Shown here one piece after another: positions 58-34,734 of a stretch of 64,000 nt of DNA; the first letter of the stretch is position 1, and each line of letters starts with the position of its first letter. Both the position numbers and the translations under genes were made by a program. This DNA is from Nonomuraea sp. SYSU D8015 (lineage in GTDB: Bacteria; Actinomycetota; Actinomycetes; Streptosporangiales; Streptosporangiaceae): contig NZ_VJYI01000016.1 of NCBI RefSeq assembly GCF_008065375.1, positions 186,001 through 250,000 on the forward strand, in the 5' to 3' direction. Under the pieces are notes generated by a model that saw only the letters and a program-made list of their open reading frames with translations, was not told the origin of the DNA and ran no database searches.

Positions 58-146
58 GTGTCCGCCTCAAGGTAAAAACAACTCACCGGCAGCAATTCGA
101 GTAGGATGTAATTTCTTCACGATTAGCGGCTTGGGGAGAGAACCTA
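58..146. promoter_or_regulatory. divergent intergenic region at the left edge
   Basis: This 89-bp stretch separates the HAD gene (minus) from the LuxR regulator (plus). It is clearly less GC-rich than its surroundings. A GGGGAG at 133-138 is a good ribosome-binding site for the GTG at 147. TAGGAT at 102-107 could be a -10 element, but no convincing -35 is seen. Confidence 0.35.
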
Positions 147-842: not shown

Positions 843-1350
843 GCACCACCTGGTGCACCTCGGCCCCCTCCCACGGGCCAGAGCCGTCGCGCCGGTGCAC
901 GCACACCAGGTGGCCGCCGGGGAGCAGGGCATCGATCACCCGGTCGACGAGCAGCTCCAGGTCGCGCAGCGACAGGTAGTAGAGGAACTCGGACAGCACG
1001 ATGAGGTCGAAGCGCTCCTCCGGCAGGTCCTCCGGAAGGACGGCGCGGGCCACGTGGACGTGCGGGAGGTCCGCCACGGCTCTCGCGGCTGCGGCCACCG
1101 CGTCCGCCGCGCAGTCCACGGCGAGCAGCCGGTCGCACCGGGCGGCCAGCCCGCGGGTGAGGACGCCGATGGAGCAGGCGGGCTCGTAGGCGAGGGCGTA
1201 CCGCTCGTTCGGCAGGCTGGCCAGCGTGACGTCGTACTTGTGCCGCTCGTACCAGCTCGTGGCGAGGTTCCACGGATCGGCCGCCGCCGCGTAGCGGGCG
1301 TCGAAGTAGGCCGGTGTGAGGCTGACCTCGTGACCGGGGCTCACACCCAT
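721..1350 (-). CDS. SAM-dependent methyltransferase (NodS-like)
   Basis: This 209-residue class I methyltransferase opens with the [13 protein letters not shown] segment seen in NodS-type N- or O-methyltransferases. A degenerate SAM-binding motif follows ([14 protein letters not shown], about residues 55-68), then the acidic strand LLAVDCA and the motif-III-like [10 protein letters not shown]. The usual E/DxGxGxG motif I is weak: EPACSIG lacks one Gly, which is common in this subfamily. It is the last gene of the twelve-gene operon, and its ATG overlaps the epimerase stop by 10 nt. A role in methylating the cluster sugar or aglycone is inferred from position. Its 3' end runs antisense to the tail of the LuxR gene. 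Confidence 0.8.
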
Positions 1351-2321: not shown

Positions 2322-2802
2322 CGTACCTCCCGAGCAGATCGGTGGAGGAGGAGGTGACGAGCGCGTCGGTGAACACCGTCCGTCCCCCCAGCTCCTGGAC
2401 GGCGCGGGACTCGGCGGCGAGCCGGTCGTCCGTGCAGCGGGCGTAGTCGGGGCCTTTGACGTAGAAGTCCGGCCGCAGCGCCCTGATCACCTCGACCGCG
2501 GTCGCGGCGGGGCTGGCGCACACGTAGTCCACCGCCTCCAGCGCCGCGATCACCGTCATCCGGTGCGCCAGGCCGAACGCGGGCCGGCTGGGCCCCTTCG
2601 CGCAGGTCACGTCCGAGCTCACACTCACCACCAGGATGTCCGCCAGCTGCCTGGCCTGGCCGAGGTGATGCACGTGTCCGATGTGCACCAGGTCGAAGCA
2701 GCCGTGGCAGAGCGCCAGCCTGCGGCCCGCCTCACGGGTCTCGCGCGCGGTCCGGGTGAGCCACGCGAGCTCCACGATCTTCTCTTCCGGTGCCCTGCTC
2801 AC
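2314..2802 (-). CDS. HldE/RfaE C-terminal-type sugar-phosphate nucleotidyltransferase
   Basis: This 162-residue stand-alone protein matches the adenylyltransferase half of bifunctional HldE (RfaE). It has LCHGCFDLVHIGHVHHL with the HIGH nucleotide-binding motif at about residues 38-41, KGPSRP, the RMTVIAALEAVD helix, VKGPDY, and a C-terminal TSSSTDLL in place of the usual STTxII. The family transfers AMP (or another NMP) onto a sugar 1-phosphate such as heptose 1-phosphate. The GTG start at 2802 forms a GTGA overlap with the LuxR stop. With the PfkB-type kinase two genes upstream it recreates a split HldE. Glycerol-phosphate cytidylyltransferase is the main alternative, but the VKGxDY and KGxxRP segments favour the HldE group. 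Confidence 0.85.
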   Translation of the reverse strand: MSRAPEEKIVELAWLTRTARETREAGRRLALCHGCFDLVHIGHVHHLGQARQLADILVVSVSSDVTCAKGPSRPAFGLAHRMTVIAALEAVDYVCASPAATAVEVIRALRPDFYVKGPDYARCTDDRLAAESRAVQELGGRTVFTDALVTSSSTDLLGRYGA

Positions 2803-3356
2803 CGGACCGATCCCGTCGCCTGGAAGCGGGCGGCCGCGGCGGCGCGGCTGGGGACGTCCAGCTTGCCGAGGATCGCGTGGACGTGATTCTTCACCGTGCG
2901 CAGTCGTACGCCCAGCCGGTGCGCGATGGCCTCGTTGGACATGCCCGCCGAGATCAGCGCCAGCACCTGGGTCTCCCGGGGCGTGAGCCGCCGTCCGCCC
3001 AGCCGCCCGCGCGCCGCCACCTCGATGATCGCCGCGGCCAGGCTGTCGACCGGCTCCTGCCAGGAGACGAAGCCGACCGCCCCGGCCTGCAGGCAGCCCA
3101 CCACGCTCTCGTGCCGCTCGGCCGCCCCCAGGATGAGGACGGCGGGTCCGCCGGCGCGGTGGAGTTCGGCGACCAGGCGGGCGCTGTCCGGCATGCCGGT
3201 GTTGACCAGCACGACGTCGAAGCGTGCTGCCTCGATCACGTCCAGCCGCCTGCGGACCTCGACGTTCGGCAGTCCCGCGCGGCACAGCCGTACGGCCAGC
3301 GCGTCCGCGTAGAGCAGCGTCTCCTCGAGGATGAGAACAGCGGGCCGGTCTGTCAT
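2799..3356 (-). CDS. LuxR-type regulator with degenerate receiver, inside the biosynthetic operon
   Basis: This 185-residue NarL-like protein has residues 1-115 as a receiver-like fold and about 123-180 as the LuxR helix-turn-helix (LTPRETQVLALISAGMSN, then [17 protein letters not shown]). The receiver is more degraded than in the 147-842 paralogue: the acidic pair is Glu11-Glu12, the phospho-acceptor is Asn52 (LVNTGM), and the conserved Lys is replaced by Trp/Gln (GFVSWQE). Phospho-switching is therefore unlikely. Ligand binding or constitutive dimerisation is more plausible. It lies between the sugar kinase and nucleotidyltransferase genes with 4-nt overlaps on both sides, so it is co-transcribed with the pathway and may feed back on it. 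Confidence 0.85.
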   Translation of the reverse strand: MTDRPAVLILEETLLYADALAVRLCRAGLPNVEVRRRLDVIEAARFDVVLVNTGMPDSARLVAELHRAGGPAVLILGAAERHESVVGCLQAGAVGFVSWQEPVDSLAAAIIEVAARGRLGGRRLTPRETQVLALISAGMSNEAIAHRLGVRLRTVKNHVHAILGKLDVPSRAAAAARFQATGSVR

Positions 3357-4231
3357 GAGATGCCCTCCAGGGGAAAGGCGAAGGCGGTCGTGGTCAGGTC
3401 GGACAGCCGCGCTCGTGGAAAGGCCAGGGAACGCGGGTCGGACACGTGGCGCCAGGCGTACTGCGAGGCCGCCGCCAGGGCCTCCGGCCAGGCACAGCCG
3501 TGCTCGCGGGCGGTGAGCAGGGCGGCGGCGAAGGCCTCACCCGCACCGTTGGCGTTGCGGGCGACGTCCGCCTCCGCCGCCGCGCCGACGGACAGCGCGC
3601 GGTTGCCGGTGAAGACTGTGCTCCCGCGCTCGCCGCGGGTGACCACCACAGCGGGCACCCGATCCAGCTCGGGCAGGTGACGGAGCAGTTCGTACTCGCG
3701 CTCGTTGACGATCACCAGCTCCGTCGCGGCGAGGACGGCCGCGCGGTCCGCGGCGGCCATGGCGCTCAGCTCGCGGCACTGCACCGAGTGCGGCATCAGG
3801 ACCATGCGGCCGCTCACCCGCGTGAGCAGCCGGTCCAGCCGAGTCGGCGAGCAGACGACCGTCACGTCGGCGGAGTGGCGGCGGACCGCGGGACGGGGCG
3901 CCCGCCGATGCGTGACGATCATCGAGTCCCCGTCCGGGTCGATGACGGTGATCGCATGGTCCAGCGCACCGGGGTGGCGCTGTGCGAGCACCGTGACGCC
4001 CTCGGCCTCCAGCGTCTGCAGCGCGAGCTCGCTGTCCGCGCACCGGCCCAGCGTGGTCAGCAGCGTGACCGGATTGCCCAGACGGCGCAGCGCGACGGCC
4101 AGGCACAGACCGGGACCGCCGGGGCTCGGCTCATGGGCGGAGGCCTGCAGGCTCAGGTCGAAGGCGAACGCGGTCTCGCTCCAATAGACGTCGTCCCGGT
4201 ACGTGCCGCCCACGACCAGGTAGTCGCTCAC
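3353..4231 (-). CDS. PfkB/ribokinase-family sugar kinase
   Basis: This 292-residue protein has the ribokinase layout: an N-terminal strand DYLVVGGTYRDDVYW, a Gly-rich segment SPGGPGLCLAVALRRLG (about 37-53), then LVIVNERE and VVVTRGERGSTVF. The C-terminal signature reads NANGAGEAF where DTxGAGDxF is expected, so Glu232 replaces the catalytic-base Asp. Kinase activity may be altered or retained, since Glu can sometimes substitute. GTG at 4231 overlaps the glycosyltransferase stop (GTGA) and the stop overlaps the LuxR ATG. It is probably the phosphorylating step that precedes the HldE-C-like nucleotidyltransferase. The sugar substrate is unknown. Confidence 0.82.
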   Translation of the reverse strand: MSDYLVVGGTYRDDVYWSETAFAFDLSLQASAHEPSPGGPGLCLAVALRRLGNPVTLLTTLGRCADSELALQTLEAEGVTVLAQRHPGALDHAITVIDPDGDSMIVTHRRAPRPAVRRHSADVTVVCSPTRLDRLLTRVSGRMVLMPHSVQCRELSAMAAADRAAVLAATELVIVNEREYELLRHLPELDRVPAVVVTRGERGSTVFTGNRALSVGAAAEADVARNANGAGEAFAAALLTAREHGCAWPEALAAASQYAWRHVSDPRSLAFPRARLSDLTTTAFAFPLEGIS

Positions 4232-5415
4232 CGGGTCTGCTCCCGCACCGCCAGCTTCTCCAGGTCCGCGACGAACTCGTCCAGGGAGGGAAGGGCCAGG
4301 ATGGACCGCTGCATGGAGCGGGCCCGCGCCCGGTAGCCGGGGTCTTCCAGGACGGTGCGGCAGGCGTCGGCTACCGCCGCCGGGGTGAGCGCCTCCCAGT
4401 CGAGGCGTACCGCCAGGCCGAGCTCCACGCAGCGCTGCACGATGATGTGGTTCTCGGCGATCCAGGGCACCGCCACCATGGGCACCCCGAACCGCAGCGC
4501 CTCGCGCACGCTGGTGAAACCACCGTGGGTGAGCAGCAGGTCGGCGCACTCCAGGAGCAGAGGCTGGGCCACCACGTCGGTGAGGTGCACGCCCGCGGGC
4601 GCCGGGCCGTAGGCGGCCGGATCCTTGTCCGCGCCGACCGCCACCACGGCCGCGACGTCGAGCTGCCCGAGCGCTTCGACGATGGTCCGCAGGGTCCGGT
4701 CGGCGGCGCGGAACAGCGGCGCCACGGTGCCGAGGCTGGCGTAGACGAGGGGACGGTCGGCCGGCAGCGCGGCCACGAAGCCGGGCAGGCGGTCTCCCGG
4801 CCGGTCGACCGTGTGGTGCCGGTAGCAGCGCAGCGCCGGGATGGCCAGCTCGGCCGGGTCGTAGTGCGGCGGCATGAGGTGGGCGTGCAGATGCGCGTAG
4901 ATGCGCTCGCCCGCCGGGTCGGGCCGCAGGCCCAGCGCGCGGCGCTGCTCGCCGAGCGCGGGCGCCATCAGCCTGACGTCGAGGAACTCGGTGATCCGCC
5001 CCACCACGCCGACGGACGCGTGCGGGATGGACAGAGACTCGCCGGCCAGGCAGCCGCCCAGCTCGTACGCCTCGCGCACGATCACGTCGGCGCCGAAGTC
5101 CTGGGCGTGGCCGATGACGTCCTTGGCCATGGCCAGCGCGCCCCCGCCCGGGATCCCCGAGGTCACCAGGCGGTTCATCAGCCGGGCGATCTCTTCGGGC
5201 GGGATCTGCTCCTCGCCCATGAGGGGGGCGAGCATCGGAGTGATCCAGTCGCGTCCCGCCGGGAGGTGGCGCAAGCCGTACAGCTCGACCTCGTCCTTGA
5301 AAGAGGGGGTGGAGCACACCGCGACCTCATGCCCACGCCGCCGCGCCGCGTGCGCCACGCTCACCAGGGGTCGCAAGTGGGTCTCCACCGGCAGCGTGGT
5401 GAACAAAATCCGCAT
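4228..5415 (-). CDS. macrolide-type GT-B glycosyltransferase (GT1 family)
   Basis: This 395-residue enzyme belongs to the antibiotic glycosyltransferase group. The N-terminal acceptor domain starts MRILFTTLPVETHLRPLV. The C-terminal donor domain carries PLVYASLGTV (about 237-246) and the nucleotide-binding stretch LLLTHGGFTSVREAL then GVPMVAVPW (about 310-335), including the His and Gly residues that contact the donor phosphates. It is the only glycosyltransferase in the visible cluster, so it most likely attaches the sugar made by the neighbouring kinase, nucleotidyltransferase and epimerase to the PKS-derived core. It is separated from the preceding operon gene by 71 bp containing a strong hairpin. 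Confidence 0.9.
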   Translation of the reverse strand: MRILFTTLPVETHLRPLVSVAHAARRRGHEVAVCSTPSFKDEVELYGLRHLPAGRDWITPMLAPLMGEEQIPPEEIARLMNRLVTSGIPGGGALAMAKDVIGHAQDFGADVIVREAYELGGCLAGESLSIPHASVGVVGRITEFLDVRLMAPALGEQRRALGLRPDPAGERIYAHLHAHLMPPHYDPAELAIPALRCYRHHTVDRPGDRLPGFVAALPADRPLVYASLGTVAPLFRAADRTLRTIVEALGQLDVAAVVAVGADKDPAAYGPAPAGVHLTDVVAQPLLLECADLLLTHGGFTSVREALRFGVPMVAVPWIAENHIIVQRCVELGLAVRLDWEALTPAAVADACRTVLEDPGYRARARSMQRSILALPSLDEFVADLEKLAVREQTR

Positions 5416-5486: not shown

Positions 5487-6149
5487 TCAGTCGACCAGCC
5501 CGGTCAGTTCGCTATCGGTGCCGATCTTCATGCAGACGATCTGGCCCGCGGCGTTGTACAGCGGAACCAGGCCCTGCTGACGGTACGGCTGGCCGATGGG
5601 CGGGATCTTGGTGAGCTCGCACACCATGACGGCCGGCTCCCGGTTGTGCAGGGTGCCCAGCGGAGTGTCGGCCACCAGGTAGACCTCCTGCACGCTCCGG
5701 ACCGGGTCGGTGCCGAAGTTCACCAGCGGGGAGATCTCCAGGCTGCCGAAGGTGGGCCGCATCAGCGGATCCATCCCACGGCCCACCCGGAGGCGGATCT
5801 CCTCGCCCGGCCAGAGAACCTTGCTCGTCCCGACCGCCTCGTAGGTCCGCGTCTCGAGGTCCAGCCGCATGGCGCCGTCCAGGGTGAGGACGGGGTCGTG
5901 CAGGCGGATCTGCGAGCGCTCGGCGATCAGGGTGATGGTCTCGGTCGGGGTGTCCGCGGTGGCGTCGTCGCCGAGCTTCAGGGTGATGGTGGTCTGCACC
6001 CTCGCCGCGAAGCCCAGCGTGCCGTCGTCCAGCTCACGGCGGGGAACCATCACGTCGACCAGGTGCCTGGCCTTGCTGTGAAGCAGTTCCGCCGCGCTGG
6101 CTGGATCGGCGGCCTGCAAGCGCGACCGCAGATCGTCGATCACTGGCAT
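5487..6149 (-). CDS. unrecognised beta-strand-rich protein of the enediyne operon
   Basis: This 220-residue protein is not one I can assign to a family. The start is taken at the ATG 6149-6147 because GGAAGGGAG precedes it by about six bases; an upstream in-frame Met at 6197 would overlap E10. There is no signal peptide, membrane segment or recognisable catalytic motif. Residues 1-35 look helical (VIDDLRSRLQAADPASAAELL) and the remainder alternates short hydrophobic strands (TTITLKL, SQIRLHDPVLTLDGAM, EVYLVADTPLG), suggesting a beta-barrel or jelly-roll. It lies 35 bp after E10, inside the operon. Possible roles are a cyclase-like step, a carrier or a drug-binding self-protection protein; none is shown by the sequence. 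Confidence 0.7.
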   Translation of the reverse strand: MPVIDDLRSRLQAADPASAAELLHSKARHLVDVMVPRRELDDGTLGFAARVQTTITLKLGDDATADTPTETITLIAERSQIRLHDPVLTLDGAMRLDLETRTYEAVGTSKVLWPGEEIRLRVGRGMDPLMRPTFGSLEISPLVNFGTDPVRSVQEVYLVADTPLGTLHNREPAVMVCELTKIPPIGQPYRQQGLVPLYNAAGQIVCMKIGTDSELTGLVD

Positions 6150-6184: not shown

Positions 6185-6637
6185 TCAACTGCGCCACGCT
6201 GTCCTGACCGGCTCGGACAGGTAGGCGTCGATTGCATGGAGCAGGGTCGGCGGCACGGGGACGGGAACCAGCTCCGCAGCCTCCCGTCGCAACCAGGCCA
6301 CCTCCTGCTCGCCGCGGGCGACGAGCTCCTCCTCGCCGCCTCGCAGCCGCCAGTACTCGAACCGCAGGGACATGCGGTTCTGCATCACTCGCCCCACCCG
6401 CATCCGCACCGCGATCTCGTCGAAGGCCACCAGTTCGGCCAGGTACGTGCAGGAGACGTGGGTGGTGACGAGCGCGTGCTCCTCGTCCAGGCCGGCGAGC
6501 ACCTCCGGGGCCATCCTGCGCAGGAACAACTCCCGGGCCTGCCCCTGCCAGCGCAGGAAGTGCGCGAAGTAGACGTTGCCCAGCTGGTTGGTCTCCTCGA
6601 GCGTGACCACGTGGCGGTGTTCGAAGACCTCAGGCAT
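6185..6637 (-). CDS. E10: enediyne E10-type hot-dog thioesterase
   Basis: This 150-residue acyl-CoA/ACP thioesterase of the hot-dog fold hydrolyses the nascent polyene from the enediyne synthase in characterised cassettes. The diagnostic N-terminal block EETNQLGNVYFAHFLRWQG (about residues 14-32) is typical of E10 proteins such as those of the C-1027 and calicheamicin clusters, with the Glu/Asn active-site region followed by QARELFLRRM. Length matches the family. Its ATG at 6637 overlaps the PKSE stop by 8 nt, as expected for a partner made in step with the synthase. Confidence 0.93.
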   Translation of the reverse strand: MPEVFEHRHVVTLEETNQLGNVYFAHFLRWQGQARELFLRRMAPEVLAGLDEEHALVTTHVSCTYLAELVAFDEIAVRMRVGRVMQNRMSLRFEYWRLRGGEEELVARGEQEVAWLRREAAELVPVPVPPTLLHAIDAYLSEPVRTAWRS

Positions 6638-9600
6638 CGCGGTCCTCCGCCTCCAGCGCGACGGCCGTCACCAGGCCGCCGGACAGGTGCGTGACGACGG
6701 AGATCCGGCCCGACCTGAACAGCACCATCGCGCCGTCCGTCCCGGCGAAGGTGAGGGGTGCGCCCGGCCGGCCGGCGCACTTGCGTACGGCTTCGCGAGC
6801 CGCCCAGACCCGCGCCGCGCCGTCGTCGCCGAGCAGGGCGCGCAGTTCCTCGTCCTCCGGCCCCAGCGGCTCGAACTGCGCGGCGGGCCCCAGGCGGACC
6901 AGGTCCACGCCGACGGGCACCGTGGCCGTGGCCGCGATCGTGAGGTCCTCCTCGTGGCTCACGGAGATCCGCCGCCCGCCGGAGACCTCGGGACGGCCGT
7001 CCCCCCGCCCCCGGATCACCGTGTCCGGTCCGAACAGGCGGGCCGCCGCTCTCGCCCGGCGCTGCACCCTGCCGCCGCCCGACTCCACGGTCAGCTCCAG
7101 GCCGGTGTCCGCCAGCCGTTCGCGGCAGTACCGCTGGAGGTGGGGCGCGATGAGCGCGGGCGGGATCAGGGCCGGTCCGGCCTCCAGCACCCGCAGACGC
7201 AGCCCCTCCCACCGCTCCAGGACGCGGCCGGAGGCGTCGGCGACCTCGAAGTCGAAGACGTAGGTCGTGCCGTCGCTGTGCCGCTCGCGGGCGTGCAGCA
7301 CGGCGTCGGCGCTCTCGGTCGCCATGATCGTGATCCGCTCCACGCCCACGGGCAGGAGCCGCGCCCGGGGGAGGCAGGCCTGGATCGCGTGGACGGCCGC
7401 GTCCCTGCGGCCGGGGTCGCCCAGCGCCAGGCCGCGGGGCAGGTGACCGGCGAACCAGCGCGCGCCGGCGTCGGCGGCGAGCTCGGCGGCGCAGGCGTAG
7501 CCCGTCAGCATGAGGTAGCCGCGCACCCTGCGGAAGCGTCCGCTCTGGAAGAGCAGGCCGCCGTAGAGCTGCTCGCCGGGGTCGAGCGAGATCGGCTCGC
7601 CGGTCAGGGTGAGGGGCGGCATCAGACGTTCCGAGCCCGCGCCGTTCTTGGCCACGCACGTGGCGGTGAAGTGGTCCACCACGAAGCCGGTCGCCGAGCT
7701 GCGCAACGCCACCCGGATCGCGCCGTCCTCGTCCACCAGGGCGGCCACCCGCACCGTGACCTCCTCGGCGGCCGGGACGGCGATGGGCTGGGCGAAGCGC
7801 ACGTCGGTGAAGACAGGCGGCTGGTCCAGGCCCGCGACCGCGGCGGCCGCCTGCGCCATGGCCTCCAACCCCAGCACGGCCGGGAGCAGCCGGTCGCCGC
7901 CGAAGACATGGTCGTCCAGGTAGAGATCGGTGGCCGTGCTCACGTTCACGTCGGCGACCAGCTCCACGCCCGGCACGAAGCGGCGGGGGTGTTCCAGGAA
8001 CCGGGTCATCGGCAGCTCGGCGGGCTCCCTCCTGACGGTCGGGGCTTCGCCGTACCGGCCGGTCACCACCACCTGGTTCGCCCCGACCGGCGCGGAGACC
8101 AGCCGGGTGAGGACATCCAGACCGGTGTCCACGGGAATGGGATCGATGCCCCGGCGCGCCAGTGCGTCCAGCACGCCGAGCCGCTCTCCCATGCCGGCCC
8201 CGGCCCACACCGACCACTCGATCGCCAGGCTGCGGCAGTCGTCGCCGGACATGTCCGCGACGAGTGCTCCCAGCCAGTCGTTGGCCAGGGCGTAGTGCGC
8301 CTCTCCCGCCAGGCCCGTGCGGGCGATGAGCGAGCTGAACGCCACGAAGAGCCGCAGGCGGTCGCGGTCGACGGCGGCGAGCAGGTTGCGCGCCCCGCGT
8401 ACTTTGGGGGCGAACGTCCGCTCCAGCAGTGCCGCGTCCAGCTGCGCCAGCGGCGTCGGCTCATTGTCGGCGGCGCAGTGCAGGATGCCGGTGACCGGGC
8501 CCAGTTCGGCCTCGGCCCGGCGGCAGGCCTCGGCGACCGCGTCGGCGTCGGTGACGTCCGCCCGGTAGTAGCGGTGCTCGATGCCGTCGAGGCGGTCCAG
8601 GCCGGACCGCAGGCCGGGGTCCTCCGCCGGATCCGACCGGCCGAGGAGGGCGAGCCTCGCACCGGTCCGCCGCGCCAGATGCCTGGCGCACTCCAGCCCG
8701 ATGCCCCTGCCTCCGCCGCTGACGAGCAGCACGTCCTGCGGGCCGAGGTGGCCGGGCCGGCCCTGGGGGAGTGGCTGGAGGCGCAGGACCGGCACCGTCC
8801 TGCGGCCTTGCGCGTCGTAGCGGGCCTCGACGTAGCCGCTGGTGGCTGAGGCCAGTTCGGCCCGGATCCAGGCGGCCGCGTCAGGGGTGTCGGGGACGGT
8901 GATGACGGTCGTCGGGATGCCGGTCTCCAGGTGCGCGCTGCGGGCGAAACCCGCGCCTGCCTCGGCGTGCTGGACCACGACGAGGCGTGGCGCGCCGGGG
9001 AGCGCGGCCGCGGCCTGGGCGAACAGGTCGAAGGGGGGCTCCGCGGCCTCGGGAAGGCACAGGACCAGCGCCTCGGGCAGGTCCGCCAGAGCCGTGGCGA
9101 GGGGGTGACCGGGCGGGGCGAGGACCCGCGCGTGTCCCGCCGGCGTGACCGCGCCCGGGGAGTTCAGCGGCTCCTCGACGTGCTCCACCGTGAAGACCCG
9201 GACCCACGAGTCCACGCCCGCGACGGGGTCCGCGGCGTCCTGTTCGGCCTCCCCGGCGGCCAGCGCCTCGGCGACCTCGGCGATCGAGGCCCCGGCGAAC
9301 TCGGTCAGGTGAACCGGCACCGGTAGCCCCAGCCGCCGGGCCGCCTCGGCGATCAGCTGGGCCACGGTGATGGAGTTCAGATGCAGGTCGGCCGACAGGC
9401 GGCTGGCCGGCGTGACGGCCTCCAGCGGCAGCTCCACCCGCTCGGCGACCAGCCTGCGCACCACCTCCGCCGGATCGTCGCCGTCCGCCTGCGCGGGGAC
9501 CGGCTCCACCCGGACGGGCTCGGCACGCGGCACCGACGCCTCCGGCGCGCGCTCGCACGGGTTGGCCAGGAAGGACGGCGCGTAGGACAGGTCGATCGGC

Positions 9601-12182
9601 CGGATGAGGCGACCGGCGAACAGCGCCTGCAGCTTCAGGTCCTGCCCGAGCACCCAGGCCGCGGCCGCCGCTTGGAGCAGCCCCGCCAGGGTACGGCCCG
9701 CGGCCCCGACGGCGAACGAGGTCCGGCCCATGGCCGCGGCCAGCCCTGTCAGCACGCTGTCCGGTCCGGCCTCGACCCAGCAGGCGATGCCGTCGGCGGC
9801 GCCGATGGCATCGGTGAAGCGGACCGGGGCGGTGATCTGCCGGGTGAGGTGGGCACGCAGGTCGGTGGCCGGATCCACCGGGCCGCCGGTCACCGTGGAC
9901 AGGACGAGCCCTGCCGGCCGGGCGAAGCCCACCTTGTCCAGGTGGCGCGCGAATTCCGCGGCGGCGGGCTCGATGAGCGGAGAGTGGAAGGCGTGGGAGA
10001 CCGGCAGGCGGGTCGCGCCCAGCTCGCGCACCGCGCGGTCGACGCCCTCCCGCGAGCCGGAGATGACGGTGGCCGACGGGCCGTTCAGGCACGCGATCAC
10101 CGTGCCGGGCGGCAGCCGGTCCGCCACGTCCTCGGGGCCGCCGGCCACACTGGCCATCGCGCCGTGCTCCCCCGGGATCGCCGCCATCGCCTCGCCTCTC
10201 GCCCGCACCAGGGCCAGCAGGTCCTCCCGGCCGAGCGCGCCCGCCCAATGAAGCGCGGTCAGCTCGCCAAGGCTGTGCCCGAGCGCCACGTCCGCGACGA
10301 CTCCCAGGTCGCCGAGGGCGAGGAGGGCCGCGATCGAGGCCGTGGTGATCCGCGGCTGCGCCGTACGCGTGTCGGTGTCCGCGGCCTCGCCCACCAGCCC
10401 GGCCTCGGCGTACAGCTCCGCCACGGAAGGGAAGCGGCGGGCCAGCGCGCCGCCGGACGCCGGCGCGCGTGATGCCTGGCCGGAGCAGAGCAACCCGATT
10501 CCCCGGGGCCCGGGCCCGCTGGTGAAGGCACGCGGGCCGAGCAGGCGCTCACCCCTGTCCAGCGCGGCCAGCGCCTCGGCCAGCCCGGCGCCGAGGTCCT
10601 CCGGCGTCGCCGCCACGACGGCCGCGCGGTGCGCGCCCTCGCCGCAGGTGCCCGCCAGGTGAGCGGCGAGGTCGGCGACCTGGGCGCGGGAGAGCAGCGG
10701 GGCCACGCGTGCGGCGGCCGACAGGCGTTCGCGCAGGTCCTTCGCGGTGGGTGCGGCGAAGACCAGCAGCTCGCGGTCCTGGCTGGTACGGCCCAGGGAA
10801 CGCGTACGGCCGTCCAGGCCGCGCCGCCGGTGCGATGCCAGGCCCTCCAGCACCACGTGGGTGTTGATGCCGCCGAAGCCCATGGCGCTGACCGCGGCGC
10901 GCAGCGGGCGATCGGCGGGCCACGGCTCCGGCTCGGCCAGCACACGCAGAGGCCGGTCGCCGGTCAGCAGCTCGTGCGGCTCCTCGCAGGCGATGGCGGG
11001 CGGCAGCGTCTGACTGTGGACGGCCATCACGGCCTTGATCAGACCGGCGGCGCCGGCGGCCGCCTTGGTGTGGCCGATCGCCGCCTTGACCGAGCTGATC
11101 GCGGCGCTCCCGCCCGTCCCGACGACCTGCGACAGGGCGGTCAGTTCGGTGAGGTCGCCGATCGGTGTCCCGGTGCCGTGCGCCTCGAACAACGCCACGG
11201 TGTCGGCGCCGAAGCCGGCGCGCCGGTAGGCACGCTCGAGGGCGCGCCGTTGCCCCGCCACCTCGGGGCGCGTGATGCCGCCTGTGCCGTCGGAGGACAC
11301 GCCCCAGCCGCGCAGCACCGCGTACGGCCGCAGGCCCCAGGTCACCGCGTTCTCCAGGCGGGTCAGCACCAGCATCCCGCAGCCCTCACCAGGCCAGAAG
11401 CCCTGGGCCCGCCGGTCGAAGACGCGCATCTCGGTGGTGGCCAGCGCGCCTGCCCGGGCGAAGCCGACCAGCTCGAACGGGTCCAGGCTGAGGTCGACGC
11501 CGCCCGCGACCACGAGTTGCGCGTCCCGGGACTCCAGGGCCTGGCAACCATGGATGACCGCCAGCAGCGAGGCGGCGCAGGCGCCGTCCAGGGTGTAGCC
11601 GCCGCCGCCGAACCCGAAGTGGCCGCAGATGCGCCCCGCGATGGTGTTCGACAACCCGCCCGCGAGGGAGTCGCCGTCGGGCTCGGGGAAGGGCGCGCGG
11701 AAGCGCCGTCCGAACTCGGCGAGGGTCTCCTGGTCACCGATCAGGCCCGAGGCCACGCGGTGCACGTACGGCCAGCGGGTCCTGAGCACGTGCGCCCTGG
11801 TGAACTCGCCCGTCAGCGTGTTGCCCACGTACACGGCCGTCTCCTCCGCCACCGGCCCCCCGTCGCCGAGGCCCGCGTCGGCCAGCGCCCGGGCGGCCAT
11901 GTCCAGGGCGAGCCAGTGCGTCAGGTCGGTGGCGCGGTAGGTCGGGCCCGACACGCCGTAGGCGATCCGGTCGAAGGCGTAGCCCTCCAGCACGGCGGCC
12001 TGGGTGAGGGCGATGCGGTCGGGGTCGACGCCCTCGGCGTCGTAGTAGTCCTCCAGCCGCAGGCGTTCCGGCGGTATGCGGCGGAAGGCCCGCCGTCCCG
12101 CCAGCGCGTTCTCCCACAATTCGCGTGGGGTGGCGGCGCCGGCGTAGACGCATGCCATGCCCACGATGGCTATGTCCGTCAT
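6630..12182 (-). CDS. pksE: iterative enediyne polyketide synthase (PKSE)
   Basis: This 1,850-residue multidomain synthase builds the linear polyene precursor of an enediyne core from malonyl units. Domains in order: ketosynthase (about 1-440) with active-site Cys202 in TLDGACAASL and His motifs in EAHGTGTPIGD and IGHTKAAAG; acyltransferase (about 520-840) with Ser637 in GHSLGE; acyl carrier protein with Ser937 in DLHLNSITVAQ, a PKSE-specific motif; ketoreductase with GGGRGIG near 1155 and Tyr1297 in EAHYALAND; dehydratase with His1425 in LDDHVFGGDRLLP; and a C-terminal 4'-phosphopantetheinyl transferase with Asp1760 in VGVDLVRLG and WAAREAVRKC. There is no methyltransferase or enoylreductase domain. 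The ATG at 12182 forms an ATGA overlap with the E5 stop. Size is slightly below the roughly 1,900 residues of known PKSEs. Whether the product is a 9- or 10-membered enediyne is not resolvable here. Confidence 0.96.
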   Translation of the reverse strand: MTDIAIVGMACVYAGAATPRELWENALAGRRAFRRIPPERLRLEDYYDAEGVDPDRIALTQAAVLEGYAFDRIAYGVSGPTYRATDLTHWLALDMAARALADAGLGDGGPVAEETAVYVGNTLTGEFTRAHVLRTRWPYVHRVASGLIGDQETLAEFGRRFRAPFPEPDGDSLAGGLSNTIAGRICGHFGFGGGGYTLDGACAASLLAVIHGCQALESRDAQLVVAGGVDLSLDPFELVGFARAGALATTEMRVFDRRAQGFWPGEGCGMLVLTRLENAVTWGLRPYAVLRGWGVSSDGTGGITRPEVAGQRRALERAYRRAGFGADTVALFEAHGTGTPIGDLTELTALSQVVGTGGSAAISSVKAAIGHTKAAAGAAGLIKAVMAVHSQTLPPAIACEEPHELLTGDRPLRVLAEPEPWPADRPLRAAVSAMGFGGINTHVVLEGLASHRRRGLDGRTRSLGRTSQDRELLVFAAPTAKDLRERLSAAARVAPLLSRAQVADLAAHLAGTCGEGAHRAAVVAATPEDLGAGLAEALAALDRGERLLGPRAFTSGPGPRGIGLLCSGQASRAPASGGALARRFPSVAELYAEAGLVGEAADTDTRTAQPRITTASIAALLALGDLGVVADVALGHSLGELTALHWAGALGREDLLALVRARGEAMAAIPGEHGAMASVAGGPEDVADRLPPGTVIACLNGPSATVISGSREGVDRAVRELGATRLPVSHAFHSPLIEPAAAEFARHLDKVGFARPAGLVLSTVTGGPVDPATDLRAHLTRQITAPVRFTDAIGAADGIACWVEAGPDSVLTGLAAAMGRTSFAVGAAGRTLAGLLQAAAAAWVLGQDLKLQALFAGRLIRPIDLSYAPSFLANPCERAPEASVPRAEPVRVEPVPAQADGDDPAEVVRRLVAERVELPLEAVTPASRLSADLHLNSITVAQLIAEAARRLGLPVPVHLTEFAGASIAEVAEALAAGEAEQDAADPVAGVDSWVRVFTVEHVEEPLNSPGAVTPAGHARVLAPPGHPLATALADLPEALVLCLPEAAEPPFDLFAQAAAALPGAPRLVVVQHAEAGAGFARSAHLETGIPTTVITVPDTPDAAAWIRAELASATSGYVEARYDAQGRRTVPVLRLQPLPQGRPGHLGPQDVLLVSGGGRGIGLECARHLARRTGARLALLGRSDPAEDPGLRSGLDRLDGIEHRYYRADVTDADAVAEACRRAEAELGPVTGILHCAADNEPTPLAQLDAALLERTFAPKVRGARNLLAAVDRDRLRLFVAFSSLIARTGLAGEAHYALANDWLGALVADMSGDDCRSLAIEWSVWAGAGMGERLGVLDALARRGIDPIPVDTGLDVLTRLVSAPVGANQVVVTGRYGEAPTVRREPAELPMTRFLEHPRRFVPGVELVADVNVSTATDLYLDDHVFGGDRLLPAVLGLEAMAQAAAAVAGLDQPPVFTDVRFAQPIAVPAAEEVTVRVAALVDEDGAIRVALRSSATGFVVDHFTATCVAKNGAGSERLMPPLTLTGEPISLDPGEQLYGGLLFQSGRFRRVRGYLMLTGYACAAELAADAGARWFAGHLPRGLALGDPGRRDAAVHAIQACLPRARLLPVGVERITIMATESADAVLHARERHSDGTTYVFDFEVADASGRVLERWEGLRLRVLEAGPALIPPALIAPHLQRYCRERLADTGLELTVESGGGRVQRRARAAARLFGPDTVIRGRGDGRPEVSGGRRISVSHEEDLTIAATATVPVGVDLVRLGPAAQFEPLGPEDEELRALLGDDGAARVWAAREAVRKCAGRPGAPLTFAGTDGAMVLFRSGRISVVTHLSGGLVTAVALEAEDRDA

Positions 12183-13147
12183 GCCGTGGCACCCCGCTGA
12201 GAGCAGCCGAACAGGTACAAGCCGCGCACCGCGCACACGATGGTCAGCGCGAAGAACATCCCGAAGGCTACGTGCAGGCTGGTCAGCAGGCCGTAGAGCG
12301 CTGCCGCCCCCGCGCCGAAGAACACCTGGTTGAGCGGCTTCACCGGCGTCGTCGCCGGGTCGGTGATCATGTAGTTGGTGAAGAGGACGAAAGCCAGGCC
12401 GGTCATCGGGAGCAGCACGCTCGCCGGCGGCGCGTCGAAGAGCGCCACCCGCACCAGGCCCTGGGCCGCGAAGCCGCCCACCCACGCCGCGATCAGCGGC
12501 ATGCGCTTGGTGAGCTTGGCGTTGAGCAGCGTCCCGGTGGTGATGATGATCGCGGGGAGCAGCCAGTCCCACAGGCCGGTGACGTTCTCGGTGAAGTGGT
12601 ACGGCGGTGCGATCCCCACCCAGGTGAAGCAGAGCAGCGTGACGGTGATCCCGAAGTTGGAGGGGTTCATGACGTGGCGGTCGCCACGGCCCATGCGCAC
12701 GCGCAGGAGAGTCTTGCCGCCCAGCGCCACGACCACGCCGAAGACCACCGGCCACACCTGACCGCCGGAGTAGAGCAGCATGCTGACGGCCAGGGCGGTG
12801 ATGTGGGCGGGGAGCAGGAAGTCCACCAGCCCGCGGACCCCGGCGCCCAGGAAGCGGGGCGGGCGGCGGCGCATGCGGGCGTCGAGGTACTCCAGGCCCA
12901 GGTCCATCGCGTAGGCGGTGGCCAGTGCCGCGATGGGGCAGATGAGGGCGGGCTCGAAGCCGAGGATGGCATACCCGGCGATGTTGAGCACCGTGATGGC
13001 CAGGGCGAAGCGACGCAGGGCTGTGATGCGCACGTCCTTCGCGGCGGCCGCGGCCGGGGCCGTCGGCGTGGCACCGGGCGCGCTGGTGACGTCCCCTTGC
13101 GGCAGGCCGGGGACTTCGGCTGGCTGGGGGCGGGTCGTCGTCATCAC
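12179..13147 (-). CDS. unbU: enediyne E5 / UnbU-like integral membrane protein
   Basis: This 322-residue polytopic membrane protein has about eight to ten hydrophobic helices from residue 40 onward (for example AITVLNIAGYAILGF and LLPAHITALAVSMLLY) after a Pro/Ala-rich cytosolic N terminus. MNPSNFGI and YMITDPATTP resemble the conserved loops of RnfD/NqrB-type redox membrane subunits, a known relationship of UnbU proteins. Its biochemical role in enediyne assembly is unsettled, but its position between E4 and the PKSE is invariant in the cassette. It overlaps both neighbours by 4 nt. Confidence 0.92.
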   Translation of the reverse strand: MMTTTRPQPAEVPGLPQGDVTSAPGATPTAPAAAAAKDVRITALRRFALAITVLNIAGYAILGFEPALICPIAALATAYAMDLGLEYLDARMRRRPPRFLGAGVRGLVDFLLPAHITALAVSMLLYSGGQVWPVVFGVVVALGGKTLLRVRMGRGDRHVMNPSNFGITVTLLCFTWVGIAPPYHFTENVTGLWDWLLPAIIITTGTLLNAKLTKRMPLIAAWVGGFAAQGLVRVALFDAPPASVLLPMTGLAFVLFTNYMITDPATTPVKPLNQVFFGAGAAALYGLLTSLHVAFGMFFALTIVCAVRGLYLFGCSQRGATA

Positions 13148-15057
13148 GAGCTCCTCATGCCGGTGGGGGACGGGACCGCGCGATCGGTCAGCAGGACCGC
13201 GGTGCGGCCCGGGGTCAGGGTCAGCGACTGGCGGTGGGGCCGACCGTTCTCGTCACGCCAGCCGATCTCCACGGCCAGCGGTCCCGGATCGGGGCCCAGG
13301 CCGAAGGAGACCTCCGGGCTGCGCTTGCCGGAGTGGCCGCTGCCGCCGTCCGACTGCGCCACGTGCCGGGCGCCCCGCTGGTCCCGCACGGTCACCGTGG
13401 CTCCGATCAGCGGCGTCGTGCCGTGCTCGGCCGGACGGGCCAGGCTCAGGGTCAGCGAGGCGTTGCTCCGGGCCGTGGGCGAGTCGTTGCGGTAGAAGAC
13501 CGGAGCCGCCCACTGGTTGGCGACCGCGACGTCCAGGTCGCCGTCGCCATCCGCGTCGCCCAGGGCGATGCCGCGGCTGATCGTGCTCTCGCCCATGCCG
13601 ACCAGGCCGGAGATCTCGGAGTAGCGGGCGCCCTCGCCGGTCTTGGCGAAGAACTTGACGCCGCCGTCGCCGGCCAGGTCGGTTCCCGGGCCCAGGAGCG
13701 GCCATCGGTCCGGGTCGGCGAGCACCTCGTCGTTCATCAGCGCGAGTTCCTGGACCTCGGGCCAGCGGTTGACCGCGCCGCGGACGAACCCGGTGGCCTG
13801 CAGCACCTCGACGATCCCGTCGTTGTCGAGGTCGGCCATCCTGGCGTCCCAGCCCCAGCCCGTGCGGCTCAGGCCGTACTCCTCGCTGCGGTCGGTGAAC
13901 GGCGCCTGCCCACGGGCCAGGCCCTGCGCCTGCCCGGTGTTCACCCAGACGAAGTTGCTCTCCTGCAGGGCGAACTCCTCGGTGATGTTGCTCACCACGA
14001 TGTCGAGGTGACCGTCGCGGTTGATGTCGCCGAAGTCGGTCGCCATGCCCTTGAAGGAGTCGTGCCCGAACCGCTTGGAGCCGGGCGTGGTCAGCGTACG
14101 CGCCCCCTCGGCCAGGGCGAAGGCAGGCGCCCCCGGCTTGGAGCGGTTGTGCAGCAGCCGGTCGGGACCCATGTCGTTGGCCATGTAGATCTCCGGCAGC
14201 AGGTCGCCGTCGAGATCCTGCGCGCCGAGCGCCAGCGTCCAGCCGTCGGACATCTCCCAGGTGAACGCCTTGCTGGCGTCCTTGAACAGGCTCGTGTCGC
14301 CTGTCCCGAGGAACAGCCGGTTGCGACCGGCGTTGAAGGCACGTGACCAGGAGTGGTTCATCCACACGGGGCCCTGTCCCGCGGCGTCCAGCACCGCCGT
14401 GTCGTCAGGGAAGTAGTTGCCGATGATCAGGTCCAGGCGGCCGTCGCCGTCCACGTCGGCCGTGGAGGCCGCGTTGGTGTTCCAGCGCTCGGTGCTGCCG
14501 GGCACCAGATCCGTGGCGCGGTACGTGCCCGGCGACGGGGTGCGGCCGGTGGCGAGGTGCAGCGTGGGCGTGCGGCCCCAGTAGTACACCAGCAGGTCCA
14601 TGCGGCCGTCCGCGTTGGCGTCGAGCGGCAGGCACCCCATGGGCGCCATGGCGGCGTCGTACCGCAGCGACCCCACGTCCAGGGCGAAGGGCTGATATCT
14701 GGCCGGGCCGACCGGAGCGGGCGCCACGACGGCCCTGTCCACGCGCGGGTCCACATAGCACAGGTCGTTGGCCAGCCCGTCGCCGTCCAGGTCGGTCATC
14801 GCGATCCCCGCGCCGACCGACGACATCCACGCCTGGATCCGCCGGTAGTCGGGGTGCACCTGCCTGATGGTCTGTTGCGGCAGGCCCTGCGGCATGGCGA
14901 TGGGCAGGGCGGCGAAGCGGTACCGCTCTCCGAGCCGCTGCCGCTCCTCCGCGCCCGCCTCGGGCAGCCGGGTGACGAGGAAGGCGGCGACCACCAGGAG
15001 AAGTGCTAAGCCGCGTGCGACATACGGGCGGACACGCTCCATGCGGTCAGGCGACAT
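13144..15057 (-). CDS. unbV: enediyne E4 / UnbV-like FG-GAP repeat protein
   Basis: This 637-residue protein has an N-terminal membrane anchor or uncleaved signal (GLALLLVVAAFLVTRL, residues about 15-31) and an extracytoplasmic beta-propeller. Repeated Ca-binding-like DxDxDG blades are visible (DLDGDGLANDL, DANADGRMDLL, DVDGDGRLDLI, DLDGDLLPEI, DINRDGHLDIV, DLDNDGIVEV, DADGDGDLDVA). The C-terminal ~100 residues form the ASPIC/UnbV domain (GATVTVRDQRG, and the YVDP/GWRDENG region). It is a member of the conserved enediyne cassette with unknown reaction. It overlaps E5 by 4 nt and E3 by 11 nt. Confidence 0.93.
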   Translation of the reverse strand: MSPDRMERVRPYVARGLALLLVVAAFLVTRLPEAGAEERQRLGERYRFAALPIAMPQGLPQQTIRQVHPDYRRIQAWMSSVGAGIAMTDLDGDGLANDLCYVDPRVDRAVVAPAPVGPARYQPFALDVGSLRYDAAMAPMGCLPLDANADGRMDLLVYYWGRTPTLHLATGRTPSPGTYRATDLVPGSTERWNTNAASTADVDGDGRLDLIIGNYFPDDTAVLDAAGQGPVWMNHSWSRAFNAGRNRLFLGTGDTSLFKDASKAFTWEMSDGWTLALGAQDLDGDLLPEIYMANDMGPDRLLHNRSKPGAPAFALAEGARTLTTPGSKRFGHDSFKGMATDFGDINRDGHLDIVVSNITEEFALQESNFVWVNTGQAQGLARGQAPFTDRSEEYGLSRTGWGWDARMADLDNDGIVEVLQATGFVRGAVNRWPEVQELALMNDEVLADPDRWPLLGPGTDLAGDGGVKFFAKTGEGARYSEISGLVGMGESTISRGIALGDADGDGDLDVAVANQWAAPVFYRNDSPTARSNASLTLSLARPAEHGTTPLIGATVTVRDQRGARHVAQSDGGSGHSGKRSPEVSFGLGPDPGPLAVEIGWRDENGRPHRQSLTLTPGRTAVLLTDRAVPSPTGMRSS

Positions 15058-16048
15058 GACTGCTCCCTGTGGTCGTGAGTTCTCGTGCCACCCGCCGCCG
15101 CCATTCCTCGTAGGCCGGCACCGGGCCCGTGTGGCCTGCCAGCCCCGCCAGCACCCGGTCGGTCACCGCCGCCGCCTCGGCGCTGCCGACACCGGCCAGC
15201 GCCAGCGTGGCCGCCTCGGTGTGCGCCGGCGGCACGCCCAGGCGGATCCGCGCCTTGGCGGCGAACGCCGCGCCTTGGGCCAGGGCGGGCGCGTGGGCTC
15301 CCGCCAGCCGGGGGAGGCGGGTGACGTGGTCCTGCGGGCCTCCGGCGTACGTCGCGGCGAGCCCCACGCCGCTCCACACGTCGCCGTGGAACTCGGGACG
15401 GTAGCGGCGTACCTCGCCGGCGACGAGGTCGGCGTCGCCGCAGCAGAAGAACCAGAGCGCTCTTCCGGCCCCCTGCGCGGTGGCGTGCGCCACGTAACCG
15501 GGCAGTGGTGCGCGGACCGGCTCTCGGGGGTGGAAGAACACCTGGTGGAAGCCGTAGCCGTCCCAGGCGAGCCAGCCGAGCAGGGGGTCCAGGCGGCACA
15601 ACAGCGGGCGCCAGCGCCATCGGGGCAGCCGGGCCAGTGCCCACCCGACGCCCACGTTGACCGTGTAGACGCTCCGGGCGGCGGGCCCCTCCCGGAAACG
15701 CGCCAGGCGGTCGCCGGGGATGGGCGACAGGGCGTCCAGGAGGGACAGGGCCATGGCCGCGCCTTCGAAGACGAAGCCGATGCCGTCGGCACGTCCGCCG
15801 CCGCCGTGATCGGTGTCCGCGCCCCGCGCGAGTGAGGCCCTGGCGCGGCCCTCGGTCGCATCGATGACCCGCCCGACGTGCTCGGGCTCGCCGATGTCCA
15901 ACGCGAGCTGGTATCCCCGGACGAAGGCCGCGCCCGCGGCCTCCAACCGCGACCGGGTCTCATGATCACCAAGGTGGAACCCGCGGACGCTGAAGCTCAC
16001 CTCTCGTGGCGAGATGCCCAGCATCCGGCGTCGAACCTTTCGAAGCAT
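15047..16048 (-). CDS. E3: enediyne E3 / DUF1702 protein
   Basis: This 333-residue protein belongs to DUF1702, one of the five families in the enediyne PKS cassette. Recognisable features are the N-terminal MLGISPREVSFSVRGF, the Trp/Phe-rich middle (LLGWLAWDGYGFHQVFFHP), the paired Cys of LWFFCCGDAD, and the C-terminal Ala-rich helices. It is the promoter-proximal gene of the long minus-strand operon, with the divergent intergenic region 16049-16203 upstream. The ATG at 16048 has a GGGGGCGG Shine-Dalgarno-like stretch. The function of the family in core maturation is not established. Confidence 0.9.
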   Translation of the reverse strand: MLRKVRRRMLGISPREVSFSVRGFHLGDHETRSRLEAAGAAFVRGYQLALDIGEPEHVGRVIDATEGRARASLARGADTDHGGGGRADGIGFVFEGAAMALSLLDALSPIPGDRLARFREGPAARSVYTVNVGVGWALARLPRWRWRPLLCRLDPLLGWLAWDGYGFHQVFFHPREPVRAPLPGYVAHATAQGAGRALWFFCCGDADLVAGEVRRYRPEFHGDVWSGVGLAATYAGGPQDHVTRLPRLAGAHAPALAQGAAFAAKARIRLGVPPAHTEAATLALAGVGSAEAAAVTDRVLAGLAGHTGPVPAYEEWRRRVARELTTTGSSHVA

Positions 16049-16203: not shown

Positions 16204-17529
16204 GTGATAGTCGTCGTCGGAGCCGGGCTGGCCGGCCTGGCCTGTGCTGATCGCCTGCGCCGCGCGGGCGTGGACGTCCAGGTCTACGAAGCCGCCGAAC
16301 GTGTGGGTGGCAGGTGCTGGACCCTGCGCGGCCACTTCTCCGGAGGCAGGCACGCCGAGCGCGGCGCGCAGCTCGTCGACTCCGGCGACAGCGCCCTGTT
16401 GTCCCTGCTGGACGAGCTGGAGATCCCGGTGGTGGACCTCCAAGCGGTCATGCCGCCCGGCGCCGCGCCACGGCTGTGGATCGACGGAGCGGAATACCCG
16501 CTGGAGGAGGCCGCCAAGCACTTCGCGGACGTCCAGCCGGCGATCCGGGCGGACCTCCTGGCGACCGGTCCGAGGCCCGGCCACGCCGACGCGACAACGC
16601 GCGCGGTGGAGCTGGATCGGCTGTCCATCAGCGACTACCTCGAGTCCATCGGCGCCGCCCGGCGCCTGCGCCGCTTCCTGGAGGTCGCCTACACCTGGGA
16701 GCTCGGCGCCGACGCGACGGAGCTCAGCGCCCTGCATCTCGTGACGCTCCTGGGACGGAGCCCTGAAGGGGAGTTCGAGCTGTTCGGCCCGGGGGATGCC
16801 CGCTACGCGATCCCCGACGGCGTGGACCGGATCGCCGAGCGCCTCGCCGAGCGCGTCGGAGACCGCGTCAACCCGGGCGCCGAGCTGGTCGCCGTCCGCC
16901 GCGACGACTGGGGCCGCTTCGTGCTCACCTTCCAGCGCGGCGTGGCCGTGCAGGACGTCCCGGCTGATCAGGTGGTGCTCGCCCTCCCGTTCTCGGTGCT
17001 GCGGGCCTCGGTCGACATCAGCCGGGCCGGGTTCTCGCCGCTCAAGACCCGCGCCATCGGCGAACTGCCCATGGGCGGCGCGGTGCGGACGCACCTGGAG
17101 GTGGTCGGACGGCCCTGGCTGGCCTCGGGCTGCGACGGGGCGACGGTCTCCGACACCGGCTACCAGACCTGCTGGGAGGAGACCCTGGGCGTCCCCGGCG
17201 AGACCTCGATCCTGGTCAACCTCCGATCGGGGGCGGACGCGACGCGGCCCGTGCCGCCCGATGCCCTCATAGGCGAGATCGACAAGGTGATCAGCGGGGT
17301 GGCGGCCGCGTGGACGGGCGGCTGGGCCTCCTTCGACTGGTCCGCCCATCCCTGGTCGCTGGGCTGCTACGCCTTCTACCGGCCGGGACAGTTCACCGCG
17401 TTCGCCGGCGAGGAGGCCCGTCAGGAAGGCGCCTGCCACTTCGCGGGCGAGCACACCAGTCCCTTCGACAGCGGCATGAACGGGGCCGTGGCCAGCGGAT
17501 GGCGCGCGGCGGCGGAGGTTCTGACATGA
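16204..17529 (+). CDS. flavin amine-oxidase-like FAD oxidoreductase
   Basis: This 441-residue flavoenzyme has the dinucleotide fold VVVGAGLAGLACADRL (GxGxxG at residues 6-11), the ADP-ribose Glu in QVYEAAERVGGRCWTLRG (a GGR motif typical of monoamine oxidase and phytoene desaturase relatives), and the C-terminal FAD motif HFAGEHTSPFDSGMNGAVASG. Translation starts at GTG 16204; the upstream ribosome-binding site is weak. It diverges from the PKSE operon and is coupled by ATGA to the membrane protein that follows. It probably oxidises a pathway intermediate or an amino-sugar; the substrate is unknown. It is not part of the conserved enediyne cassette. Confidence 0.87.
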   Translation: MIVVVGAGLAGLACADRLRRAGVDVQVYEAAERVGGRCWTLRGHFSGGRHAERGAQLVDSGDSALLSLLDELEIPVVDLQAVMPPGAAPRLWIDGAEYPLEEAAKHFADVQPAIRADLLATGPRPGHADATTRAVELDRLSISDYLESIGAARRLRRFLEVAYTWELGADATELSALHLVTLLGRSPEGEFELFGPGDARYAIPDGVDRIAERLAERVGDRVNPGAELVAVRRDDWGRFVLTFQRGVAVQDVPADQVVLALPFSVLRASVDISRAGFSPLKTRAIGELPMGGAVRTHLEVVGRPWLASGCDGATVSDTGYQTCWEETLGVPGETSILVNLRSGADATRPVPPDALIGEIDKVISGVAAAWTGGWASFDWSAHPWSLGCYAFYRPGQFTAFAGEEARQEGACHFAGEHTSPFDSGMNGAVASGWRAAAEVLT

Positions 17530-18050
17530 CCACGACCATGAATTCCGTACGGCACAAGCAGGCGCTGACGATCTTCCTCGTCATCGTGGTGGCGCATTGG
17601 GCCGAGCACATCGCGCAGGCGATCCAGGTCTACGCGCTCGGCTGGCCGTTGCCGGAGGCCCGCGGCGTCCTGGGCATCCCCTTCCCCTGGCTGGTCACCA
17701 GCGAATGGATGCACTACGGTTACGCGCTCATCATGCTGGCCGGCCTCTGGTTCCTGCGCCAGGGGTTCGTCGGCCGGTCGCGGACCTGGTGGAACATCGC
17801 GCTCGGCATCCAGGCCTGGCACCACTTCGAGCACCTGCTCCTGCTGTTGCAGGCGCTGACGGGATATCACCTCCTGGGCAAGCCGGTCGTCACCAGCATC
17901 GTCCAGCTGATCATCCCGCGCGTGGAACTGCACCTGTTCTACAACACCCTGGTGACGCTCCCCATGATCGTGGCGATGATCCTCCACCGGCGGCCGAGCC
18001 TGGCCGAACGCCGGCGGATGACGTGCTCCTGCGCCGTCGCCACGGCATGA
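17526..18050 (+). CDS. His/Glu-rich integral membrane protein, candidate metalloprotein
   Basis: This 174-residue protein has about four membrane helices (near 14-37, 56-78, 88-110 and 121-152) and an unusual set of polar residues in or beside them: H24-x-x-E27-H28, E60-x-x-H63, H99-H100-x-E102-H103 and E134-x-H136. The repeated HxxEH pattern in two helices is what one sees in membrane di-iron or heme proteins, but I do not recognise a family. It is translationally coupled (ATGA at 17526-17529) to the flavoenzyme, which suggests a joint redox function or an electron-acceptor role. A transport or resistance role remains possible. It is the last gene before housekeeping cmk. Confidence 0.75.
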   Translation: MTTTMNSVRHKQALTIFLVIVVAHWAEHIAQAIQVYALGWPLPEARGVLGIPFPWLVTSEWMHYGYALIMLAGLWFLRQGFVGRSRTWWNIALGIQAWHHFEHLLLLLQALTGYHLLGKPVVTSIVQLIIPRVELHLFYNTLVTLPMIVAMILHRRPSLAERRRMTCSCAVATA

Positions 18051-33709: not shown

Positions 33710-33710
33710 C

Positions 33711-34730: not shown

Positions 34731-34734
34731 CGGC

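Follow-up and report, generated by a model that had tools for sequence, protein, structure and literature searches.

Which natural product does a bacterium make when it carries the genes that define the biosynthesis of enediynes, molecules akin to DNA-damaging antibiotics, in unusual company? We asked this of a 64,000-nucleotide stretch of Nonomuraea sp. SYSU D8015, called the window below (C16:186001-250000 of G000, a 12.4-Mb genome in 71 contigs); positions given as start..end are window positions. The original prediction, made from the letters of the window, had placed here a five-family enediyne cassette in a compact operon, E3-E4-E5-PKSE-E10, where PKSE is the enediyne polyketide synthase (PKS). 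Pfam matches and open reading frame (ORF) calls bear this out. The five genes run head to tail, all on the - strand:

15047..16048, - strand: E3, DUF1702 protein, single copy (Pfam PF08012, 8.8e-87)
13144..15057, - strand: E4, UnbV/ASPIC FG-GAP protein (Pfam; 46% to C-1027 E4)
12179..13144, - strand: E5, UnbU, NQR2/RnfD-like membrane protein (Pfam; 55% to C-1027 E5)
6630..12182, - strand: PKSE, 1850 aa, KS-AT-ACP-KR-DH (Pfam, residues, trees)
6185..6637, - strand: E10, hot-dog 4HBT thioesterase (Pfam, structure matches, tree)

The cassette is real and intact. Neighbouring genes overlap by 11 nt (E3/E4), 1 or 4 nt (E4/E5, set by the choice of E5 start), 4 nt (E5/PKSE) and 8 nt (PKSE/E10). The six catalytic residues named in the original prediction (Cys202, Ser637, Ser937, Tyr1297, His1425 and Asp1760) were all read at those numbers of the 1850-aa PKSE; the C-terminal region that holds Asp1760 looks by eye like a phosphopantetheinyl transferase and has no Pfam match. 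E10 matches the solved structures CalE7, DynE7 and the 'ACP-polyene thioesterase' 4i4j with E values of about 1e-33 to 1e-36, the 4i4j stretch being identical in sequence to the C-1027 thioesterase. Since all five genes also occur in the same order in 15 of 20 related loci fetched around DUF1702 matches, the arrangement is beyond chance.

How does this synthase relate to characterised ones? Trees were built from 68 PKSEs, comprising 48 database proteins (of 238 listed), those of 14 loci, SgcE of the C-1027 producer, that of the window and those of four related loci. The PKSEs of L011, L012, L013 and L071, for which the gene caller gave no ORF >1500 aa, were left out. The first tree used the full-length PKSE (68 rows). 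The other two used the ketosynthase (KS): one had three other PKSs for outgroup (71 rows), and one, to which a rhizobial sequence was added, a Gloeothece PKS (70 rows). The characterised synthases included were SgcE, EspE (Actinomadura verrucosospora, P0157), which we take to be the esperamicin synthase, and P0235, encoded by Streptomyces sp. CB03234 and taken to be TnmE; full-length CalE8 and DynE8 were not included. Strain CB03234 is the tiancimycin producer (PMC5181780).

All three trees recover a 10-row clade that holds the PKSEs of the window, Thermobifida cellulosilytica and Nocardiopsis together with three unnamed proteins (support 100*, 100/98 and 100/100). SgcE, EspE and the CB03234 PKSE lie outside it, and so do the PKSEs of Acidobacteriota and cyanobacteria. 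A KS phylogeny had been proposed as a check, and in it the window PKSE falls inside the PKSE clade: the 68 PKSEs are monophyletic (100/100) against the three other PKSs, whose long branches were flagged by the program. With this outgroup, and the same long branches, the window clade is sister to the other 58 PKSEs (95/92), whereas the backbone of the KS tree with the Gloeothece outgroup is unresolved; accordingly, we do not claim the clade as the certain sister of all other PKSEs. The trees of other cassette proteins agree with the PKSE trees. The window E3 and those of three related loci form their own clade outside the SgcE2 and SgcE3 clades (39 rows), and the window thioesterase joins those of G270 and of three relatives in a group distinct from both CalE7/SgcE10 and DynE7 (27 rows, support weak in part). 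The window PKSE belongs to a separate lineage, one that is new when set against the characterised references used; we claim no rank for it. For comparison, in a KS survey the 11 enediyne KSs of MIBiG all fell into a single actinobacterial lineage (PMC10308959).

To see how far the cluster extends, we compared six neighbourhoods: the window, T. cellulosilytica TB100 (G678), Nocardiopsis sp. Huas11 (G530), G421, and G270 and G439, which were picked as next-best thioesterases. The same 20 genes are present in four of the six (window, T. cellulosilytica, Huas11 and G421), at 41.6-77.7% identity to the window copies in 60/60 pairings. From the NodS-like methyltransferase to the flavin oxidoreductase AO, gene order is the same in these four. 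In the three relatives, the genes for an aminotransferase, the methyltransferase MT2 and a glyoxalase-fold protein stand between AO and U174, and we count them as cluster members for that reason; M147 adjoins U174 there. In the Nonomuraea genome these four genes lie at the opposite end of the operon. Thereby, we define a cluster of 20 genes and about 23 kb (C16:181,040-204,050, window -4961 to 18050).

The cluster thus passes the left edge of the window. We examined flanks of 100 kb on the left and 20 kb on the right, with genes called by a simple codon-position script. The original prediction had advised retrieving the sequence left of position 1, where we found M147, DUF3224, the aminotransferase, MT2, the glyoxalase-fold gene (a resistance candidate) and most of the HAD phosphatase gene. 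Beside the cassette, the shared genes are the following, percentages being identities to the copies in the three relatives:

5487..6149, - strand: U220, 220-aa beta-barrel with the DynF fold (structural alignment)
4228..5415, - strand: GT1-type glycosyltransferase (Pfam EryCIII-like_C/UDPGT; 66-71%)
3353..4231, - strand: PfkB-family sugar kinase (49-55%)
2799..3356, - strand: LuxR-type regulator (syntenic, 42-58%)
2314..2802, - strand: nucleotidyltransferase, RfaE domain II-like (TIGR02199 7e-35, below the curated cut-off)
1341..2321, - strand: NAD-dependent sugar epimerase/dehydratase (family matches)
721..1350, - strand: NodS-like methyltransferase (NCBIfam score below cut-off)
-650..57, - strand: HAD-type phosphatase (L007), its 57-nt 5' end inside the window at 1..57 (Pfam HAD; 46-48%)
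16270..17529, + strand: AO, flavin amine-oxidase/desaturase-like oxidoreductase, divergent from E3 (Pfam PF01593 5e-45; 54-61%)
17526..18050, + strand: U174, membrane protein of four helices with invariant His and Glu residues (C-1027 has an orthologue)
-4961..-4518: M147
-4287..-3781, + strand: DUF3224
-3765..-2437: aminotransferase
-2437..-1703: MT2 methyltransferase
-1554..-1192: glyoxalase-fold protein (Pfam 1e-4, above cut-off)

A YCII gene at -1144 occurs in this genome and in none of the three relatives with the same 20 genes. To the right, cmk, der and a tRNA-synthetase-like gene (18147 onward) are not matched in any of the other five neighbourhoods. Further along, and unrelated to the cluster, a Mce operon (27703-36392, - strand) encodes six MlaD-domain proteins and two MlaE permeases.

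The cluster is rare. Its marker U220 was found in 1 of 59 genomes searched, its own, and in none of the 58 others, which include 35 others of the genus; a word-based search of 5.8 billion returned 10 proteins, its own included. The E10 thioesterase has a match at E <=0.001 in 151 of 341 family genomes, and among the matches listed it reaches at least 70% identity at only four places (G000, G678, G421 and G530). The cluster type is described in no title or abstract start turned up by a literature search of open-licence papers.

Cassette genes also turned up elsewhere. For example, the symbiosis plasmid pSymA of the rhizobium Sinorhizobium meliloti T073 (L140, NZ_CP021805.1:244279-259224), outside Actinobacteria, carries a full E3-E4-E5-PKSE-E10 at 36-53% identity to that of the window. 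A Candidatus Angelobacter metagenome contig (L013, 1-13 kb) has repeated E4 and E5 matches around a PKSE. At L067 (G367:C13:104000-123900), four DUF1702 matches in tandem are next to a PKS that is distantly related to the PKSE (about 31%), with no E4, E5 or E10 match in that 20 kb. The Nonomuraea genome itself has an orphan DUF1702 gene at G000:C6:50044-50985 (L020), whose 100-kb surroundings contain none of the other cassette genes, and given this copy we rejected DUF1702 alone as an enediyne marker.

Next, we compared the cluster with that of the 9-membered enediyne C-1027 (Streptomyces globisporus, NZ_CP013739.1). E3, E4, E5, PKSE and E10 are shared at 38-55% identity, the window E3 being matched by C-1027 E2 as well; the glycosyltransferase (25%) and the epimerase (31%) have distant counterparts. 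The C-1027 E-gene names are presumed, except SgcE6, named in the record, and E10, which is 4i4j. The annotated chromoprotein, dTDP-sugar, aminodeoxychorismate and tyrosine-aminomutase genes of C-1027 have no match in the Nonomuraea cluster. C-1027 also has an E2 and a PKSE of another clade, whereas the Nonomuraea cluster has one DUF1702 gene and no E2 paralogue beside E3, so on two counts, E2 and the SgcE clade, it does not group with the 9-membered systems. E2 is described as a marker of these (PMC5181780). Outside the cluster, a P450 (48721-49887) is 33% identical to another P450, from C-1027.

The surroundings of the cassette had been called unlike those of well-studied enediynes. This holds for the tailoring genes, which differ from those of C-1027; it fails for the membrane protein U174, which has a C-1027 orthologue (WP_010056327.1, 67%) next to an M147 homologue (45%). 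Moreover, of the 145 U174 copies listed for the host family, 72 share a contig with a listed enediyne thioesterase no more than 100 kb away, where a rough estimate would expect about 3.5. U174 is thus common to the two clusters, unlike the greater part of the accessory genes of C-1027. Another 53 copies come from genomes that do have a listed thioesterase, though farther off; copies separated from it by a contig break were counted here. The remaining 20 are in genomes without a listed thioesterase, and the genome table shows a match in 7 of those 20. Overall, U174 occurs in 123 of 341 family genomes, 13 of which have no thioesterase match. A second U174/M147 pair in the Nonomuraea genome (C4:65907-66881, L143) is on a contig without DUF1702, KS or thioesterase match. 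For these two reasons, U174 as an enediyne-only gene was rejected.

Eleven positions of U174 are invariant in alignments of 18 and 17 sequences (H24, E27, H28, H63, H99, H100, E102, H103, E134, H136 and H154), as is a C-terminal C-x-C; from sequence, these residues look like a membrane metal site. The structure model (pLDDT 83) is mostly helical, with four long helices. U174 has no Pfam or NCBIfam match, and its assignment by fold to a known metalloenzyme was rejected, with no PDB match under E 0.001.

Tailoring had been listed as one glycosyltransferase, a kinase/nucleotidyltransferase route and a flavoenzyme/membrane-protein pair. The set is larger, and the list passed over U220, which has the DynF fold at 14-15% identity to DynF in structural alignments. 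A profile search of PDB sequences with U220 returned no match at E up to 10, DynF included. The best NCBIfam models for the neighbouring aminotransferase and MT2 genes are the daptide enzymes MpaD and MpaM. PKSE/thioesterase pairs can release polyene methyl ketones, which would give the aminotransferase and MT2 a fitting substrate. MpaD of the daptides is a transaminase that acts on a ketone, and MpaM adds two methyl groups to the amine (PMC10036551). The sugar genes (kinase, HAD phosphatase, RfaE-II-like nucleotidyltransferase and epimerase) represent the same set of activities as the HldE/GmhB/HldD heptose route, with the difference that the kinase, phosphatase and epimerase are generic. Homologues of GmhA, below cut-off, are present in the Nonomuraea genome, Huas11 and G421. 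The glyoxalase-fold gene recalls TnmS1-3 of tiancimycin, proteins that presumably have this fold too. TnmS1-3 sequester tiancimycin (PMC9854587).

We therefore lean, with slightly better than even confidence, towards a complete 20-gene cluster of a separate enediyne-type PKS lineage that makes a predicted acetylenic, enediyne-type glycosylated amine. The genes present, their conservation as a set, the catalytic residues, the place of the lineage and the DynF fold are shown above; each chemical step and the product are inferred. PKSE and E10 would build and then release a conjugated polyene, which is the known chemistry of this family, and E3-E5 would convert it to an acetylenic enediyne-type core. 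U220 may hold the greasy chain, as DynF does, while AO would oxidise it. The aminotransferase and methyltransferase would turn a ketone into an N,N-dimethylamine, as in daptides; the kinase, phosphatase, nucleotidyltransferase and epimerase would make an activated sugar, to be attached by GT1; and the glyoxalase-fold protein may sequester the product. That a new enediyne or related polyene is plausible, as originally predicted, is supported by the PKSE lineage and by tailoring genes that differ from those of C-1027, and the compound made is probably new but related to the known enediynes. A further step, on the doubtful side but conceivable, is a third structural class, neither 9- nor 10-membered as known. 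It would combine a small core without E2, E6-E9 and E11 of C-1027, an N,N-dimethylamine from a daptide-like pair, a sugar from an Hld-like route, a DynF-fold chaperone and a lineage that is maybe sister to all other PKSEs.

Several results weigh against the acetylenic glycosylated amine. G270 and G439 share with the window only three and four cassette genes. C-1027 E1, E6, E7, E8, E9 and E11 have no match at 1e-3 by blastp and tblastn in a 184-kb region; because of this, and with no E2 beside E3, some steps towards the core may be missing. Below Nocardiopsis in the ranking, the named best matches of the PKSE (best 120 of 6954) are from Acidobacteriota and cyanobacteria, given in the KS survey as phyla without a reported enediyne (PMC10308959). 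The daptide-model scores are below curated cut-offs (265 of 450 and 76 of 175 bits), as are those of RfaE-II and NodS. T. cellulosilytica has the sugar genes but no GmhA beyond a 26-bit match, which weakens the heptose hypothesis.

Some of these points would also fit a different product: a conjugated polyene, both glycosylated and aminated, or else a shunt polyene, with no enediyne formed and E3-E5 serving only redox or transport. CalE8 and its homologues are reported to produce conjugated polyenes (PMC3107222), C-1027's E6-E9 and E11 are without match, and the lineage stands apart from the clades in which the characterised synthases used are placed. Nevertheless, E3, E4 and E5 have been kept as overlapping genes with the PKSE and are conserved in four related loci, and the glyoxalase-fold gene and DynF-fold protein fit a reactive core; we regard the polyene as unlikely, though to be taken seriously. 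An ordinary 10-membered enediyne, kin to dynemicin or tiancimycin, seems improbable. The PKSE family is shared with esperamicin, tiancimycin and dynemicin, and the DynF-fold protein, the glyoxalase-fold gene and the absence of an E2 paralogue, E2 being given as a 9-membered marker (PMC5181780), all speak for it; however, the PKSE lies outside the EspE and CB03234 clades, E3 and the thioesterase are in clades of their own, the latter apart from DynE7, U220 and DynF have only 14-15% identity, and the profile search did not return DynF. A decaying or silent cluster without any product might be read from the confinement of U220 to one genome of its genus, but the ORFs are open, the six checked residues are intact and loci in two other genera carry the 20 genes too, at 42-78% identity, which makes this very improbable.

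The locus is of a known kind, an enediyne cassette cluster, set apart by its rare, separate lineage and its distinctive tailoring set. How the enediyne core forms from the PKSE polyene, and which genes are truly needed, is still partly an open question. At 20 genes this cluster is compact; it retains the five cassette genes and lacks much of what accompanies them in C-1027. That makes it a small system for expression and dissection, and named Thermobifida and Nocardiopsis isolates carry close relatives of it. It also provides a second family with the DynF fold for probing polyene binding, and a candidate new product class.

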